Origin: Haloterrigena turkmenica DSM 5511
GTDB taxonomy: Archaea > Halobacteriota > Halobacteria > Halobacteriales > Natrialbaceae
Reading direction: 5' to 3'
Length of the DNA stretch: 64,000 nucleotides
NCBI RefSeq assembly: GCF_000025325.1
Contig: NC_013743.1
Span: 1,240,001-1,304,000, forward strand
Shown here: one piece after another, positions 11,547 through 61,542 of the stretch
Layout of the letters: every line of letters starts with the position of its first letter
Numbering within the stretch: position 1 is the stretch's first letter
Made by a program: the position numbers and the translations under genes
Notes under the pieces: generated by a model
What the model saw: only the letters and a program-made list of their open reading frames with translations
Databases searched by the model: none
What the model was told of the DNA's origin: nothing

Positions 11547-14351
11547 TTAACTGATGTGAATCGCCGGCTTGCCCGGCCGCGCCGCCTCCGCCAGTTCGTC
11601 GCCGTCGGTCGCCTGGCGCACGGTGACGTCGGCGTCGAACTCGTCGGTGACCAGCCAGGCGGAGCGCTCGAGGATCGAGCGCTCCGACGCGGCGTCGGAG
11701 ATCTCCTCGAGTTCCGTGTGGTCGCCGCGCTCGAGCAGGTCGACCACGAAGGGTGCGACGGTCTCGCGGTCGGCGTCGACCCCGGCCTCGAGGACTCGGT
11801 CGACGAGCGACTCGGTGTCCGCCCCCTCGATCGACTCGTCGATATCGTCCCGGAGCAGCCGGATCGTCTCGTACTTCCAGTCCTGGGCCACGACGAGATC
11901 GATCCGCTCGGGGTCGTCGATCGCCGCGGTGTCGACGATATCGCGAACGTCCGCGAGCGTCGTCTCGACCAGCCGGCGCTCGCGTCGGTAGTCCGCGACG
12001 TCGCTCTCGGGGGTCGGCCAGTCGGCCTCGACGACCAGTCCCTCGCCGCGGAGCTTGTTCCAGCACTCCTCGCCGAGGTGTGGCGCCATCGGCGCGATCA
12101 GCGCCGAAAGCGTCAGCAGCCCACGTCGATAGACCTCGCCGTGGGGTCGTTCGTACTCCCGGTATCGGCGGAGCAGTCGTGCCAGTTCTCGGATCTCCGT
12201 AGCGGCGCGGTGGAAGCGGAACCGCTCGTACTCGTCGGTAACCGCGACGATCGTGCGGTCGATCTCCCGGGCGAGATAGCCGTCGTGGGGCCGTCGCTTG
12301 ACGCGCGTGTCGCCCTCCTCGACGAACGCCGAGGCCATCCCGTAGAGGGTCTGCTGGAGTTCGTAGGCGCCGCGGACGTTGTTCGCGGTCCACTCGAAGT
12401 CCTGCTCGGGGTGGGCCGCCGAGAGGACGAACAGCCGCGTCGTCTCCGCGCCGTACTCCTGGGGCGCGACGACGTTGCCCTTCGAACTCGACATCTTCTC
12501 GCCGTCGTACAGCACCGTCCCCTGGCTCTTGAGCTCCCGAATCGGTTCGCGCTGCTCGAGCAGCCCCAGATCGGCCAGCGCTTTCGTGAAGAAGCGCGTG
12601 TAGAGCAGGTGGAGGATGGCGTGTTCCTCGCCGCCGACGTAGACGTCGACCGGCAGCCAGTCGTCGGTCAGTTCGGTGTCGAAGGGGGCGTCCTCGAGGC
12701 CGGGCGAGAGGAAGCGCAGGAAGTACCACGAGGAATCGACGAAGGTGTCCATCGTGTCCGTCTCCCGCTCGGCCGGCCCGCCGCAGTCGGGGCAGACCGT
12801 CTGCTTCCACTCCTCGGCGGCGTCTAACGGATTACCGGTCGTCCGGACGAACTCCGGGAGCTCGATGGGCAGGTCCTCGTCGGGCACCGGCACGCGGCCG
12901 CAGTCGTCGCAGTGGACGACCGGAATCGGCGTCCCCCAGTACCGCTGGCGAGAGATCAGCCAGTCGCGCAGCCGGTAGGTGACGTCTGCCTCGATCGCCG
13001 CGACCTCCTCGAGGAGCCGCTCGCGGGCGGTCCCGCTCTCGAGACCGCTGTACTCGCCGCTGTTCTCGAGGATTCCCTCGCCCGTGTAGGCGTCCGTTTC
13101 GAGATCGACGTCGATGCTCGCGTCCTTCGGCGCGACGACGCCCTCGATCGACAGGTCGTGCTCGAGCGCGAACGCGTGGTCGCGCTCGTTGTGCGCCGGA
13201 ACGCCCATCACGGCGCCGGTGCCGACGTCCTCTAGGACGTAGCCGGCGACGTAGACGGGGAGTTCCTCGCCCGTGAGCGGGTGCGTCGCGGTCGCGTCGG
13301 TTTCGACGCCCGAGAAGCCGACCTCCCCGGGATCTCGTTCGCGGACGTCCTCGACGTACGCCGCGACGTCGTCGTCTGCGGCGGCGAGTTCGTCCGCGAG
13401 GTCGTGACCGGGCGAGACCGCGAGGTAGGTCGCGCCGTAGACCGTCTCCGGACGGGTGCTGAAGACGTCGACCGTGCTCGTCGCGTCGTCGCCGACACCG
13501 TCGGTATCGGGCCCGGCGGACTCCCGCGACTCGGTCCCCTCGCCGCGTCCGTTCGAGGTGTCCTCAGAAGTGCGTTGCACTTCTGATGGGCTGCGAGAAT
13601 CGCTTTGCGATTCTCGAACGCGTGGCACCTCGCTCACCTCGAACCCGATGCGCGCGCCCTCCTGTCGGCCGATCCAGTTGCGCTGGATCTCGCGGACTCC
13701 GTCGGGCCACCCCTCGAGGTCCTCGAGTCCGTCGTGGAGTTCCTCAGCGTAGTCGGTGATCGTGAAGAACCACTGGTCGAGTTCGCGCCGGCCGACGGGC
13801 GTCTCGCAGCGCCAGCAGACGCGCTCGCCGTCCCGCTCTTCGACTTGGGCCGCCGCGAGAACGGTCTCGCAGTCGGGACACCAGTTGACCGACGCGCCCT
13901 CGTACTCGACGAGCCCCTCCTCGTAGAGCCGCTTGAAGAACCACTGGTTCCACCGGTAGTACTCCGGCTCGCAGGTCGTGATCTCCCGGGACCAGTCGTA
14001 GCCGAAGCCCATGGTCTCGAGTTCGTCGCGCATGCGACGGATACACGCCTGCGTCCAGGACTCGGGGTCGGTCTTGCGCTCGAACGCGGCGTTCTCGGCG
14101 GGCAGGCCGAAGGCGTCCCACCCCATTGGGTGGAGCACGTCGTCGCCCTGCATCCGCCGGTAGCGCGCGTAGGCGTCGGTGATCGCGTAGTTGCGCACGT
14201 GGCCCATGTGGAGCGTCCCCGACGTGTAGGGGAACATCCCGAGGACGTACGTGGGGTCGTCGGCATCCGCCGGAAGCTCGTAGACGTCGTCGCGCTCCCA
14301 GACGTACTGCCAGAACTCCTGGACCTGCGCGTGATCGTAGTGCGTCGTCAT
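11547..14351 (-). CDS. leuS: Leucyl-tRNA synthetase, bacterial type, with an extra insert
   Basis: The 934-residue class I synthetase charges tRNA-Leu. The HIGH motif is HMGH near residue 48 (YTSGTLHMGHVRNY). The zinc-ribbon/NWCPDCETVLA region is at about 155-190, the CP1 editing domain starts with TRPETVYG near 300 and the KMSKS motif is KMSSSKGN near 628. Segments such as GFGYDWSREITTCEPEYYRW follow the bacterial, not the archaeal, LeuRS pattern, so the gene was probably acquired from bacteria (inference). Between RQEGARIGFEVSE and VDVFSTRPETVYG, at the edge of CP1, sits a 50-60 residue polar insert absent from E. coli LeuRS; it contains the two DNA hairpins at 13564-13616. The ATG at 14349-14351 gives the expected N-terminus. 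Confidence 0.95.
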   Translation of the reverse strand: MTTHYDHAQVQEFWQYVWERDDVYELPADADDPTYVLGMFPYTSGTLHMGHVRNYAITDAYARYRRMQGDDVLHPMGWDAFGLPAENAAFERKTDPESWTQACIRRMRDELETMGFGYDWSREITTCEPEYYRWNQWFFKRLYEEGLVEYEGASVNWCPDCETVLAAAQVEERDGERVCWRCETPVGRRELDQWFFTITDYAEELHDGLEDLEGWPDGVREIQRNWIGRQEGARIGFEVSEVPRVRESQSDSRSPSEVQRTSEDTSNGRGEGTESRESAGPDTDGVGDDATSTVDVFSTRPETVYGATYLAVSPGHDLADELAAADDDVAAYVEDVRERDPGEVGFSGVETDATATHPLTGEELPVYVAGYVLEDVGTGAVMGVPAHNERDHAFALEHDLSIEGVVAPKDASIDVDLETDAYTGEGILENSGEYSGLESGTARERLLEEVAAIEADVTYRLRDWLISRQRYWGTPIPVVHCDDCGRVPVPDEDLPIELPEFVRTTGNPLDAAEEWKQTVCPDCGGPAERETDTMDTFVDSSWYFLRFLSPGLEDAPFDTELTDDWLPVDVYVGGEEHAILHLLYTRFFTKALADLGLLEQREPIRELKSQGTVLYDGEKMSSSKGNVVAPQEYGAETTRLFVLSAAHPEQDFEWTANNVRGAYELQQTLYGMASAFVEEGDTRVKRRPHDGYLAREIDRTIVAVTDEYERFRFHRAATEIRELARLLRRYREYERPHGEVYRRGLLTLSALIAPMAPHLGEECWNKLRGEGLVVEADWPTPESDVADYRRERRLVETTLADVRDIVDTAAIDDPERIDLVVAQDWKYETIRLLRDDIDESIEGADTESLVDRVLEAGVDADRETVAPFVVDLLERGDHTELEEISDAASERSILERSAWLVTDEFDADVTVRQATDGDELAEAARPGKPAIHIS
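13564..13616. repeat. Paired-hairpin insert inside leuS
   Basis: Two perfect inverted repeats with 10-bp stems and 3-nt loops stand side by side: TCAGAAGTGC-gtt-GCACTTCTGA at 13564-13586, then CGAGAATCGC-ttt-GCGATTCTCG at 13594-13616, with a 7-nt spacer. Read in the leuS frame they encode ESQSDSR and SEVQRTSE. The insert keeps the reading frame and lies in a non-conserved position. The architecture equals that of the elements at 16073-16117 and 60070-60115, although the stem sequences differ. Confidence 0.75.
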
Positions 14352-16010: not shown

Positions 16011-17594
16011 ATGAGCCAGCAAGCAACCGAGCAGGTGCACGGCCACTACATCGGCGGCGAGTGGACTGACAGCGCGGGACGAGGTCCCGCGAGCAGTCGG
16101 ACGCAGTCCGACGACGGTGCAGACGAGACGTTCGAGAGCCGAAACCCGGCCACCGGCGAGACGCTGGCGACGTTTCAGCGCGGGACCGAAGACGACGTCG
16201 ACGCCGCTCTCGAGGCCGCGGACGACGCCTTCGAGGAGTGGCGCGAACTGTCGTATATCGACCGCGCGGAGTACCTCTGGGACATCTACCACGAACTCCG
16301 GGATCGCCACGAGGAGTTAGGGGAGATCGTCACCAAGGAGTGCGGCAAGGAGATCTCCGAGGGGAAGGCGGACGTGACCGAAGCGTGGCACATGGTCGAG
16401 TGGGCGGCGGGCAACGCGCGCCACCCCCACGGCGACGTGGTGCCGAGCGAGATCGGCAGCAAGGACGCCTACATGCGACGGAAACCGCGGGGCGTCGTCG
16501 GCTGCATCACGCCGTGGAACTTCCCCGTCGCGATCCCCTTCTGGCACATGGCCATCGCCCTCGTGGAGGGCAACACGGTCGTCTGGAAGCCCGCCGAGCA
16601 GACGCCGTGGTGCGGCCAGATCATCGCCGAGATGATGGACGATTCCGGGATTCCCGACGGCGTCTTCAACATGGTGCAGGGCTACGGCGACGCCGGCGCG
16701 GCGATCACCGACGACGGCCGCGTCGACACGGTCCTCTTTACCGGCTCGGCGGAGGTCGGCCACGAGATCGCCGGCAAGGTCGGCAACGAGCCCGGCAAAC
16801 TCGCGGCCTGCGAGATGGGTGGCAAGAACGGGATCGTCATCACCGAGGAGGCGGATCTGGACATCGCCGTCCACTCGGCCGTGATGAGTTCGTTCAAGAC
16901 GACCGGCCAGCGCTGCGTCTCGAGCGAGCGCCTGGTCGTCCACTCGGACGTCTACGACGAGTTCAAAGAGCGGTTCGTCGACGTCGCGCAGAAGATCGCG
17001 GTCGGCGACCCCCTCGAGGAGGACACGTTCATGGGCCCGGCGATCGAGCCCGACCACGTCGAGAAGATCCGCCAGCATAACGACCTGGCTCGAGAGGAGG
17101 GCGCCGAGGTGCTCGTCGACCGCTTCGAACTCGAGGACGGCGAGATTCCGGATGGACACGAAGACGGCAACTGGGTCGGGCCGTTCGTCTACGAGGTCGA
17201 CTACGACGCCGACGACGACCTGCGCTGTCTGCAGGAGGAGTGTTTCGGTCCCCACGTCGCGCTCATCGAGTACGACGGCGACATCGAACGGGCCCTCGAG
17301 ATCCACAACGACACCCCCTACGGGCTGGCCGGAGCGGTCATCTCCGAGGACTACCGCCAGCTCAACGCCTTCCGCGACCGGGCCGACCTCGGGCTCGCGT
17401 ACGCGAACCTCCCGTGTATCGGCGCCGAAGTGCAACTACCGTTCGGCGGCGTCAAGAAGTCCGGTAACGGCTATCCCAGCGCACGCGAGGCCATCGAGGC
17501 CGTCACCGAGCGCACCGCCTGGACGATGAACAATTCAAAGGACATCGAGATGGCCCAGGGGCTGTCCGCGGATATCACGACCTCCGAGGACTAG
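16011..17594 (+). CDS. NAD(P)-dependent aldehyde dehydrogenase with N-terminal insert
   Basis: The 527-residue ALDH-superfamily enzyme oxidises an aldehyde to the acid. Motifs in order are GYIGGEW-like N-terminus, cofactor site TPWNFPVAIPFWHMA at about 165-180, FTGSAEVGHEIA near 245, catalytic glutamate in CEMGGKNG near 267 and catalytic cysteine in TTGQRCVSSERL near 302. The family (succinate-semialdehyde or KGSA-type) cannot be narrowed to a substrate. Between IGGEWTDSA and ETFESRNPATGE, where relatives run on directly, there are about 15 extra residues (GRGPASSRTQSDDGAD) encoded by the paired-hairpin element at 16073-16117. The insert is in frame and far from the active site. Confidence 0.93.
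   Translation: MSQQATEQVHGHYIGGEWTDSAGRGPASSRTQSDDGADETFESRNPATGETLATFQRGTEDDVDAALEAADDAFEEWRELSYIDRAEYLWDIYHELRDRHEELGEIVTKECGKEISEGKADVTEAWHMVEWAAGNARHPHGDVVPSEIGSKDAYMRRKPRGVVGCITPWNFPVAIPFWHMAIALVEGNTVVWKPAEQTPWCGQIIAEMMDDSGIPDGVFNMVQGYGDAGAAITDDGRVDTVLFTGSAEVGHEIAGKVGNEPGKLAACEMGGKNGIVITEEADLDIAVHSAVMSSFKTTGQRCVSSERLVVHSDVYDEFKERFVDVAQKIAVGDPLEEDTFMGPAIEPDHVEKIRQHNDLAREEGAEVLVDRFELEDGEIPDGHEDGNWVGPFVYEVDYDADDDLRCLQEECFGPHVALIEYDGDIERALEIHNDTPYGLAGAVISEDYRQLNAFRDRADLGLAYANLPCIGAEVQLPFGGVKKSGNGYPSAREAIEAVTERTAWTMNNSKDIEMAQGLSADITTSED
16073..16117. repeat. Paired-hairpin element inserted in the aldehyde dehydrogenase gene
   Basis: Hairpin 1 is CGCGGGAC-gag-GTCCCGCG (16073-16091), hairpin 2 is GTCGGAC-gca-GTCCGAC (16096-16112), with spacer agca. 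Positions 16092-16117 match positions 60090-60115 next to tnpB at 23 of 26 bases. Two of the three differences are partners in the same stem pair (A-T here, G-C there), so the structure is conserved. The first hairpins also align with one stem pair added. The element encodes in-frame, polar residues. Confidence 0.75.
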
Positions 17595-60039: not shown

Positions 60040-60290
60040 ATCGGTGACATCCTCCTCGCCGGAAACCGAGAGGGAGCGAAGCTCCCTCAAGCAGTCGGGC
60101 GTAGCCCGACGACGGCAAGGCTTCCCACACAGTAAGAATACCGGGCTTGCCGGTAAGGTTTTAAGACCGATCATCTCCAAGCGTCATTTGCGTAGGTGTG
60201 CTCGGCTTGGGTGGTCTTACGGCGGTGTCACTACCGCTCCCATCCCGAGGCGAGTCATTGCGTTCCGATTTCCAAGGAACGCTCTCTCCC
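60040..60290 (-). ncRNA. Expected omega RNA / right end of the tnpB element
   Basis: TnpB works with an RNA made from the 3' end of its own gene and the right end of the element. The bases after the tnpB stop (60161-60163) contain three hairpins: CCGG-based at about 60140-60154, GTCGGGC-gta-GCCCGAC at 60094-60110 and GAGGGAGC-gaa-GCTCCCTC at 60070-60088. The guide would be taken from DNA beyond the end, near or below 60060. The exact boundary cannot be fixed from one copy. Confidence 0.5.
60070..60115. repeat. Paired-hairpin module downstream of tnpB
   Basis: Hairpin GAGGGAGC-gaa-GCTCCCTC (60070-60088), spacer aagca, hairpin GTCGGGC-gta-GCCCGAC (60094-60110), then gacgg. This has the same order, 3-nt loops, spacer and flank as the element inside the aldehyde dehydrogenase gene at 16073-16117. 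It is the only one of the three copies that sits outside a protein-coding gene. Confidence 0.7.
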
Positions 60291-61390
60291 CACGGGTCAA
60301 CCCTCTGAGCGATGCTTGCAGCTGCACTGATATCCGCTTGGAACGTCGAGACGCGACAGTGGTCGTTCGTACACCGAAGTTCTGCTTGCGTACTTCGCTT
60401 TCCGATGTGACTACACTCGTGGCACGTCTGAGACGTGTAACGCGGACTCACGTATTCGACCGGGATACCGACGTCTCTCGCTTTGTCCTCAACACGGCCC
60501 TGAAGCCGTGCAAAGGCCCACGCGTGGAGTCGCCGGTTCATGTACTTCCCGTAGTCCAAGTTCTCACGGATGTACGTCAGATTCTCCATCACGATCATCG
60601 GGTTCTCGAAAGTGCCAGCGTATTCGACGACCTCGCAACTGGCCTTCTCGAGGATATCCGTAAGCGCGTTTTGGTAGTAGTCGAACCGTTCATCAATGCG
60701 CCATTCAGCATCACGTTCTTGTAGTCGCTGAAGCGTGGTCGACATTTCCTTTCGGAGGTGTTTTGTACGCTTACCACTCCAGAGAACGGGTCTTGTCGGT
60801 GTACCGCGCTTAAGGCCACAGGCCGTGATCAGCGCAGTCTCACCGATATCAAGCCCGACTGGTGTGGTGTCACCGTCTACCGTCGGTTCTTCAACCGGGT
60901 ACTCGACGGTAACGTGAAGTGCCCAGTTCTTCCGGTTCTTCTGGAGTTGAATCTGTCCAGCCTTGACGTCCTCGTTGAGGAGATCGTGCCAGAGGTCTTC
61001 TTGCTCCGGGTTAATCCGAAGCGGAATCCAGAAGTTCGTCCCTCGTCCCGGTCGCGGTGCCCACCACGTGAATTCGTGCTCACGTTCGCTCGAGTAGTCG
61101 AACCTCGCGGCCTGATTTGTGAGCCGGAGCGGGTGTTCATCGTCTAACTCACGGGCGTTATATGTTTTCCGGAGCTTCGGGATGTAGCTGCATAGTGCAG
61201 CCTTCGCTTGGTATGGAAGATCGAACGGCGTCACTACTTCAGAGACACCGTTCATCGTATCCGCACCAGAGTCGAACGCGTCTTGCAGCGCCTCACGGTA
61301 TGTTTTGAGAGTATCTTGTAACTTCTCCTCTTTGTGGGCTGTCGGCGAGACAAGCGTCGCTTCGAGCGTCTTATTCGCTGTAGTAGACAT
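60161..61390 (-). CDS. tnpB: TnpB, RNA-guided nuclease of an IS200/IS605-type element
   Basis: The 409-residue protein has an N-terminal helical/WED-like region, a RuvC domain with catalytic aspartate in VGLDIGETALIT near 180, glutamate in VMENLTYIRENLDYGKYMNR near 270 and final aspartate in TFQADISAAASIAQR near 352. It also has a zinc finger CHEC...CTNDHC near 320-340. All catalytic residues are present, so it looks functional. The start ATG overlaps the tnpA stop by one base (TAATG), the usual order. TnpB cleaves DNA with an omega RNA and helps the element persist; without an intact TnpA this copy cannot move on its own. Confidence 0.93.
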   Translation of the reverse strand: MSTTANKTLEATLVSPTAHKEEKLQDTLKTYREALQDAFDSGADTMNGVSEVVTPFDLPYQAKAALCSYIPKLRKTYNARELDDEHPLRLTNQAARFDYSSEREHEFTWWAPRPGRGTNFWIPLRINPEQEDLWHDLLNEDVKAGQIQLQKNRKNWALHVTVEYPVEEPTVDGDTTPVGLDIGETALITACGLKRGTPTRPVLWSGKRTKHLRKEMSTTLQRLQERDAEWRIDERFDYYQNALTDILEKASCEVVEYAGTFENPMIVMENLTYIRENLDYGKYMNRRLHAWAFARLQGRVEDKARDVGIPVEYVSPRYTSQTCHECSHIGKRSTQAELRCTNDHCRVSTFQADISAAASIAQRVDPWGESVPWKSERNDSPRDGSGSDTAVRPPKPSTPTQMTLGDDRS

Positions 61391-61500
61391 TACTGGTTCT
61401 CAATATAATCCATGAGAACGTCGATACTCACTTACCCGGTCGTTGCGAGGAAGTATCCTGGTTGCCAGAACGAATCCTCGAGCGGCTGTTTCACTTCGGG
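61390..61500 (-). pseudogene. tnpA: C-terminal remnant of TnpA (Y1 transposase) with an internal stop
   Basis: Directly before tnpB the reverse strand reads PEVKQPLEDSFWQPGYFLAT, then TG, a TAA, then VSIDVLMDYIENQ and the terminal TAA that overlaps the tnpB start. FWQPGYFxATxGxVSxDxxxxYIENQ is the C-terminus of IS200/IS605 TnpA. The internal TAA replaces a codon that is usually glutamine or asparagine. The catalytic HUH and tyrosine part is absent upstream of about 61510. The element therefore survives only as tnpB plus ends. Confidence 0.8.
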
Positions 61501-61542
61501 TACTCGCTACGAACCTTTCGTCGGCCACCGGTGGTTCGTTGG

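Follow-up and report, generated by a model that had tools for sequence, protein, structure and literature searches.

We identified three places in the window (the whole stretch of 64 kb of DNA analysed here) at which two perfect hairpins are neighbours (stem ≥7 bp, loop 3–5, gap 2–9): a gene encoding an aldehyde dehydrogenase (ALDH), the right end of a tnpB gene, and a leucyl-tRNA synthetase gene. By comparison, 20 first-order Markov resamples of the window yielded one such place in total. No part of the window matched Rfam at gathering threshold. The features concerned, scored where indicated with a covariance model of the module (R1) built from nine genic copies, are as follows.

11547–14351, minus strand: leucyl-tRNA synthetase gene, with palindromic insertions at about 13554–13632 (minus strand) that include a second two-hairpin type (hairpins at 13564–13616).
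16011–17594, plus strand: ALDH gene, 527 aa, with an insert near the N-terminus (PF00171, E = 1.1e-140).
About 16070–16114, plus strand: two-hairpin module of 45 nt inserted in the ALDH gene, absent from four congeners (R1, 76.8 bits).
16073–16091, plus strand: ALDH hairpin 1, seen in the sequence, 8-bp stem and 3-nt loop; seven of eight pairs covary across copies.
16096–16112, plus strand: ALDH hairpin 2, 7-bp stem and 3-nt loop; two of seven pairs covary and five never vary.
60067–60113, plus strand: module copy of 47 nt in the loop of the terminal hairpin at the tnpB right end, antisense to tnpB (R1, 53.3 bits).
60161–61390, minus strand: tnpB, an IS200/IS605-type accessory nuclease gene and a bystander (PF07282, E = 8.2e-13).
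61393–61506, minus strand: degenerate Y1 transposase (tnpA) remnant upstream of tnpB (PF01797, E = 2.9e-6, profile positions 83–121 of 121, one stop).

The initial annotation had described the similarity between the two-hairpin elements in the ALDH gene and at the tnpB right end, and had placed the former where related proteins have no residues. Both elements are present (16073–16112 and 60070–60110, the latter with hairpins at 60070–60088 and 60094–60110), and an alignment of ALDH orthologues bore out the second point: the ALDH match is 1536 nt long in four congeners (G001, G002, G003, and G005) and 1581 nt long in G000 and G004, so that the four lack exactly 45 nt at the site and the frame is kept. 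The empty site reads GARTGGACYGAYGG in these four genomes, while G000 and G004 carry the 45-nt insert there. The ALDH insert encodes about SAGRGPASSRTQSDD. Its limits could lie a few nt to either side, since target and insert ends resemble one another, a similarity that blurs the ends of inserts in general. The inserts of G000 and G004 have a mutual offset of 3 nt, and therefore one event with later changes is indistinguishable here from two events. Long ALDH genes were also found outside the genus in G017 (1578 nt) and G021 (1581 nt); that of G017 has no insert at the module site, and no further filled ALDH case outside the genus was seen among the sites compared. In a second, paralogous ALDH (L079–L081), the GxWTD turn that corresponds to this site carries a module whose hairpin-1 stem is the same.

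Among the best 60 of 241 PDB relatives of the ALDH, the alignment begins at query residue 33 or beyond in 58, past nearly all of the insert, and at residues 23 and 29 in the other two; a PDB search with the ALDH at E 1e-80 returned no matches, nor did the module peptide as a query against PDB. An AlphaFold2 model of the ALDH alone had a mean pLDDT of 35.4 and gave no support for placing the insert in a surface turn.

The module is a dispersed palindromic repeat of haloarchaea. The 26-base pattern shared by the two elements occurs, with up to three mismatches, at four places in the 5.44-Mb genome and at none when read backwards; the six genomes of the genus contain 16 matches (in five of the six genomes) vs. 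0 for the reversed pattern. R1 matched 88 times in the genus at E ≤ 0.01, with 7 to 23 matches in each of the six congeners. In the family, 85 of 121 genomes had matches at E ≤ 1e-7; across the phylum, 21 of 196 did so at E ≤ 1e-6, and these 21 all belong to the same order. Among named genomes, an exact pattern matched 11 stretches, five of them in Natrinema and the others in Haloterrigena, Natronococcus, Natribaculum, Halolamina, Halapricum, and Halorussus; viral contigs contained no exact match to a 24-letter pattern. Copy counts are lower bounds, because the copy searches scored 31 to 150 candidates per genome out of thousands.

To describe where the module lies, we used 126 non-identical copies, i.e., matches of at least 30 bits out of 170 at E ≤ 0.1, weaker ones being excluded before counting, some repeats of one locus left out, and copies with identical flanks dropped; the loci sampled were the best matches plus selected extras, mostly by score order. 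These copies represent 53 distinct places: 41 are in sense orientation, each in a different cluster of protein-coding genes, two are antisense in genes (L118 and, in a PPDK-type gene, the L142 site), and the remaining 10 have no clear host gene. Paralogues occur among the 41 clusters (two ALDH, two Peripla_BP_2 proteins, and two tRNA synthetases), and several histidine kinases are grouped in one cluster. Counted by copy, 112 of 126 are sense (a script figure of 114 includes two antisense copies, the second matches in L060 and L075); the 62 copies from the window's genus comprise 50 sense, four antisense, and eight without a clear gene. Pfam domains were found in 38 of the 41 host proteins; hosts beyond those named elsewhere in this text include the aconitase family, an IlvD/Edd dehydratase, class I tRNA synthetases, urease alpha, PPDK, a P-type ATPase, histidine kinases, the OMP-decarboxylase family, and a DNA-polymerase-beta-type protein with a PHP domain, which we take to be PolX. 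In RefSeq, merA and a hemolysin-family gene on two Natrinema plasmids are intact through their module matches. A further 20 loci from family f5 (18 from genus g24 or close to it) comprised 10 sense genic copies in the same frame, nine without a clear gene, and one that looks antisense, and the genic share is therefore smaller outside the window's family.

All 41 sense genic places use one strand and one frame, giving a peptide of about SEGRSPSSSRTQSDDG, even though the module consensus is stop-free in all six frames. This peptide of approximately 15 residues is hydrophilic and Ser/Asp-rich (SEGRSPSSSRTQSDD). Automatic frame choice (GC by codon position) gave another frame for a few copies (e.g., L053, L085, and L099); these were assigned by gene cluster, where the +1 frame is open. 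The bias (41 of 43 genic places) compares with 48.5% expected from the phase of CGAC, as measured on the 41 host genes with inserts left in (P = 3e-11 if places are independent), and therefore selection or a strand-specific process also acts.

To find empty sites, we searched the genus with a query that joined host fragments without the insert, and then fetched and aligned the orthologues. For 13 of 17 host genes tested, at least one orthologue shows an exact 45-nt gap; these genes encode a beta-CASP nuclease, a Peripla_BP_2 protein, a PCC-domain protein, the L084 protein (no Pfam match), a Pyr_redox_2 protein (presumably thioredoxin-reductase-like), a DUF302 protein, a HerA-like helicase, an FlpD/ferredoxin protein, a carboxyltransferase, an EthD protein, the ALDH, a YGR210-like GTPase, and an M32 peptidase. 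A clean 45-nt gap was not seen in the other four of the 17: flanks have diverged for a DUF2249 protein and another pyridine-nucleotide oxidoreductase, M20 peptidase orthologues have a different loop sequence, and sulfatase orthologues retain 21–24 nt at the module site, which looks like a degraded copy. At some loci (CBS, Pyr_redox_2, and HerA-like) the insert is common to several genera, and many copies are therefore old and inherited. As judged from such sequence comparison, the module is mobile in the evolutionary sense.

Base pairing was assessed in 33 copies, one per gene cluster (33 of the 41 clusters have a best copy of 48 nt). In these, 99.4% of stem cells are paired, and the changes comprise 67 cells with double and three with single changes, double changes affecting nine of 15 pairs; none of 500 shuffles scored as high and no slid control came close. 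Even copies in one host gene, the HerA-like one, can have stems that differ on both arms (GCGGAGC in L090 vs. GATGAGC in L069). That single-sided changes are so scarce suggests that the DNA palindrome itself is maintained or corrected. With many copies, covarying stems, and empty orthologous sites all recovered by the covariance-model search and alignments, the part of the initial annotation that proposed a small dispersed palindromic module, comparable to REP and entering protein-coding genes in frame, stands.

Covariation also bears on a reading without mobile DNA, under which an acidic, Ser-rich linker peptide that suits halophilic proteins would have evolved repeatedly or spread by gene conversion. 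The one frame and strand shared by 41 of 43 genic places, the hydrophilic peptide, and the tag at the corresponding turn of paralogous ALDHs would all fit such a peptide; however, these hairpins are also seen in non-coding strings and at a tnpB end, double changes maintain the pairing, and a near-identical nucleotide core recurs across unrelated genes. The non-coding copies and the base-pair covariation largely refute this explanation, which we regard as highly improbable.

Copies outside genes point to the size of the repeat unit. All eight non-coding loci measured in genus g24, which belongs to another family, contain runs of four to six hairpins with 22–24 nt spacing; each run ends in the same GCAGTCGGGCGAAGCCCGAC hairpin, and some have another hairpin 35–38 nt further on. 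Runs in the window's genus are shorter and looser (24–28 nt spacing). Within the 126 copies, centre spacing is 22 nt in 78 of the 90 with two hairpins measured. Given strings with 22–24 nt spacing, the genic insert therefore corresponds to two neighbouring units, i.e., a dimer; a pair of approximately 45 nt would keep the reading frame, whereas a single unit of 22–23 nt would not. Tandem 45-nt copies are found in the CBS gene (L074), and tandem copies also occur in the histidine kinases of L270, L283, and L284. In the alignment, the unit ends (CAGC... and ...GACGA) are nearly constant, and insertion, read in gene sense, is directly before a C, mostly in CGAC or CGAT and also in CGGG, CGCC, and CACG. 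We do not claim a target duplication, because an apparent one (4 nt, at L061) is seen only where the flank also has CGA, and none is seen at L051, L085, and L093.

Tandem copies in the CBS gene and the histidine kinases, the near absence of single-arm changes, and insertion beside or inside existing palindromes would also be expected if no dedicated enzyme were involved and the module spread by replication slippage or microhomology-mediated template switching at hairpins, a process that would likewise keep arms complementary. Against this, long-range copying would be needed to place a defined 45-nt unit in unlinked genes that lie on separate contigs, and the unit ends are nearly constant; we consider this explanation possible, if doubtful.

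The initial annotation had further proposed that the module derives from, or is mobilised by, an IS200/IS605-type system; as regards derivation from tnpB, the evidence points the other way. Among 30 tnpB loci (of 32 matches, relatives being up to 75% identical, with at least one locus, L184, cut short by a contig end ahead of its 3′ flank), only that of the window carries a module, at 53.3 bits, the next best score being 22.3 bits. When 3′ ends were compared for 22 of the 30 loci, all 21 besides the window's had a short terminal hairpin (e.g., GAAGCCTCGCCGTTTACGGCGAGGAGGATGTCAC), and the terminal-hairpin region measures 83 nt in the window vs. 36 nt in a relative. Since the module is found only at the window's tnpB, inside the terminal hairpin, this tnpB is the recipient, and the direction that had been proposed is reversed. 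An origin of the module from tnpB is not supported by these loci, 29 of 30 being without it and the window's copy interrupting the right-end hairpin. Small hairpins in tnpB right ends need not belong to the element's own RNA. Four other tnpB loci (L176, L189, L192, and L196) show additional two-hairpin segments, with different stems, inside the part that encodes the C-terminus or immediately downstream of it.

Mobilisation by an IS200/IS605 (Y1) transposase, the other part of the earlier proposal, is unproven, and some evidence speaks against it. Y1_Tnp (PF01797) was found in three of the six congeners, in the window's genome only as the remnant, and in five of 12 further genomes chosen for having module copies, giving 16 matches over eight of 18 genomes. 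The other 10 genomes had no Y1_Tnp match despite 6 to 20 module matches each, at the differing thresholds of the genus, family, or phylum search. Apart from the copy at the tnpB end of the window, no clear module lies beside the Y1 genes found, the next best score being 18.9 bits, and the link that defines REP/RAYT systems was therefore not seen here. The right ends compared also revealed no ends homologous to those of an IS200/IS605 element in the module. An origin of the module from a tnpB right end, with spread by IS200/IS605 TnpA in trans in the manner of a minimal PATE, would account for the two hairpins, a junction with a target-like tetranucleotide and without consistent target duplication, and the tnpA remnant adjoining the window's tnpB. 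Further right ends that look transposon-like also carry a module (L004, L012, and L078, and L152 and L173 for the second type), which would fit as well; L173 appears to adjoin a tnpB, as we read its zinc-finger sequence. However, we consider this origin unlikely in view of the low scores (≤22.3 bits) at 29 of 30 tnpB loci, the complete hairpin in 21 of 21 others compared, the absence of Y1_Tnp from 10 of 18 genomes searched, the lack of a clear copy beside Y1 genes other than at the window's tnpB end, and a loose junction target (CGAC, CGAT, CGGG, CGCC, and CACG).

The reading that we favour, with a probability of roughly 0.86, is that of a mobile palindromic haloarchaeal repeat with a hairpin unit of approximately 22–24 nt, which forms strings outside genes and a two-hairpin dimer inside them. 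The dimer is usually 45 nt, or 15 codons, so that the reading frame survives. It enters before a C, mostly at CGAC in gene sense, and sometimes into existing hairpin loops, including that of the tnpB terminal hairpin. Copies in other frames and orientations would be selected against; the prevalence of the sense strand and one frame may be due to this counter-selection and partly to the codon phase of the preferred target, N^CGAC. The module carries no gene, and therefore something else must move it; our guess is that copies move as single-stranded hairpins, by an enzyme acting in trans or by template switching during replication. The peptide is probably tolerated rather than useful. A more specific version of this mobile-repeat reading, which we consider rather unlikely as a whole, is a transposase-free archaeal repeat whose single-stranded hairpins are copied into targets including hairpin loops, with arms kept complementary by hairpin-templated correction, a selfish two-hairpin DNA leaving 15-residue tags in dozens of enzymes across an entire archaeal family.

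The module behaves like Rickettsia palindromic elements (RPEs) and REP dimers, an analogy that we do not extend to homology with either. RPEs, as described in the available text, are bacterial elements of approximately 150 bp in several families (PMC10969869) and, like the module, are palindromic repeats that lie both between genes and, as in-frame inserts, within numerous unrelated protein genes (PMC10969869, PMC3733652); the module differs in being archaeal and 45 nt long, the comparison being by description and not by sequence. The corresponding features here are the same palindromic DNA in frame in 41 gene clusters and the exact 45-nt empty orthologous sites for 13 of 17 tested genes.

With REP/REPIN and CGTC-tagged repeats, as far as the text available describes them, the module shares short hairpins, dimers, clusters, some copies in ORFs, and heterogeneous stems (PMC3733652). 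The CGTC-tagged families have no flanking or dedicated transposase, according to the same text, and include two Rickettsia families (PMC3733652). By that account, their REPs are mostly intergenic and CGTC repeats have loops of 4–5 nt, whereas the module is mostly genic in the places examined in the window's family and has 3-nt loops; archaea are mentioned there only in two reference titles (PMC3733652). Of the features of REP/RAYT systems, we found the short hairpin, many copies, dimers, and clusters, and found neither a flanking RAYT (Y1) gene nor, at either unit end (CAGC... and ...GACGA), the conserved GTAG tetranucleotide that REPs have at one end.

The SMR-A repeats of Haloquadratum, in the text available, insert into palindromes close to the ends of IS605-type elements and PATEs, without target duplication and with a mobilisation called "enigmatic" (PMC3119063). 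Like SMR-A and PATEs, the module is a transposase-free haloarchaeal repeat, and the window's tnpB copy likewise lies in a near-terminal palindrome. SMR-A is approximately 110 bp long with terminal inverted repeats, whereas the module has 45–47 nt and two separate hairpins; the available description contains no in-frame genic series for SMR-A, and gives PATEs IS605-type ends, which the module does not have (PMC3119063). PARCEL, as partially described, is likewise a palindromic protein-coding repeat thought to spread horizontally, but consists of tandem amphipathic domains and is reported absent from Archaea (PMC2996958).

In the limited literature searched, coding palindromes that keep the frame are reported for Rickettsia and for certain REP families of bacteria, and no archaeal precedent was found, including by searching for the peptide string. 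The archaeal system, in which empty orthologues can be set exactly against filled ones, the unit is fixed at 15 codons, and only one frame is used, offers a direct handle on protein remodelling by selfish DNA, and also on what moves transposase-free repeats in halophiles.

Palindromes of a second type were found as well. In the leucyl-tRNA synthetase gene of the window, the second-type palindrome has the spacer GCAGCCCATCAGAA and seems to lie within the loop of another hairpin, one resembling hairpin 1; at the same site, G001 and G003 have the hairpin-1-like hairpin and no second-type module, and G005 has no such insert. Together with the nesting at the tnpB end, this makes hairpin loops look like recurrent targets, as has been reported for SMR-A of Haloquadratum (PMC3119063). 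The second module type is approximately 56 nt long, with 10 pattern copies in three of six genomes. In L295 and L303, from two congeneric genomes, it interrupts an esterase-like gene, and the frame seems to change across it. Histidine kinases at L270, L271, L275, L283, and L284 carry module copies at the apparent N-box; the VEHGS codons native to the host there make up a palindrome like hairpin 1. The L137 copy adjoins an apparent duplicated tRNA 3′ sequence.
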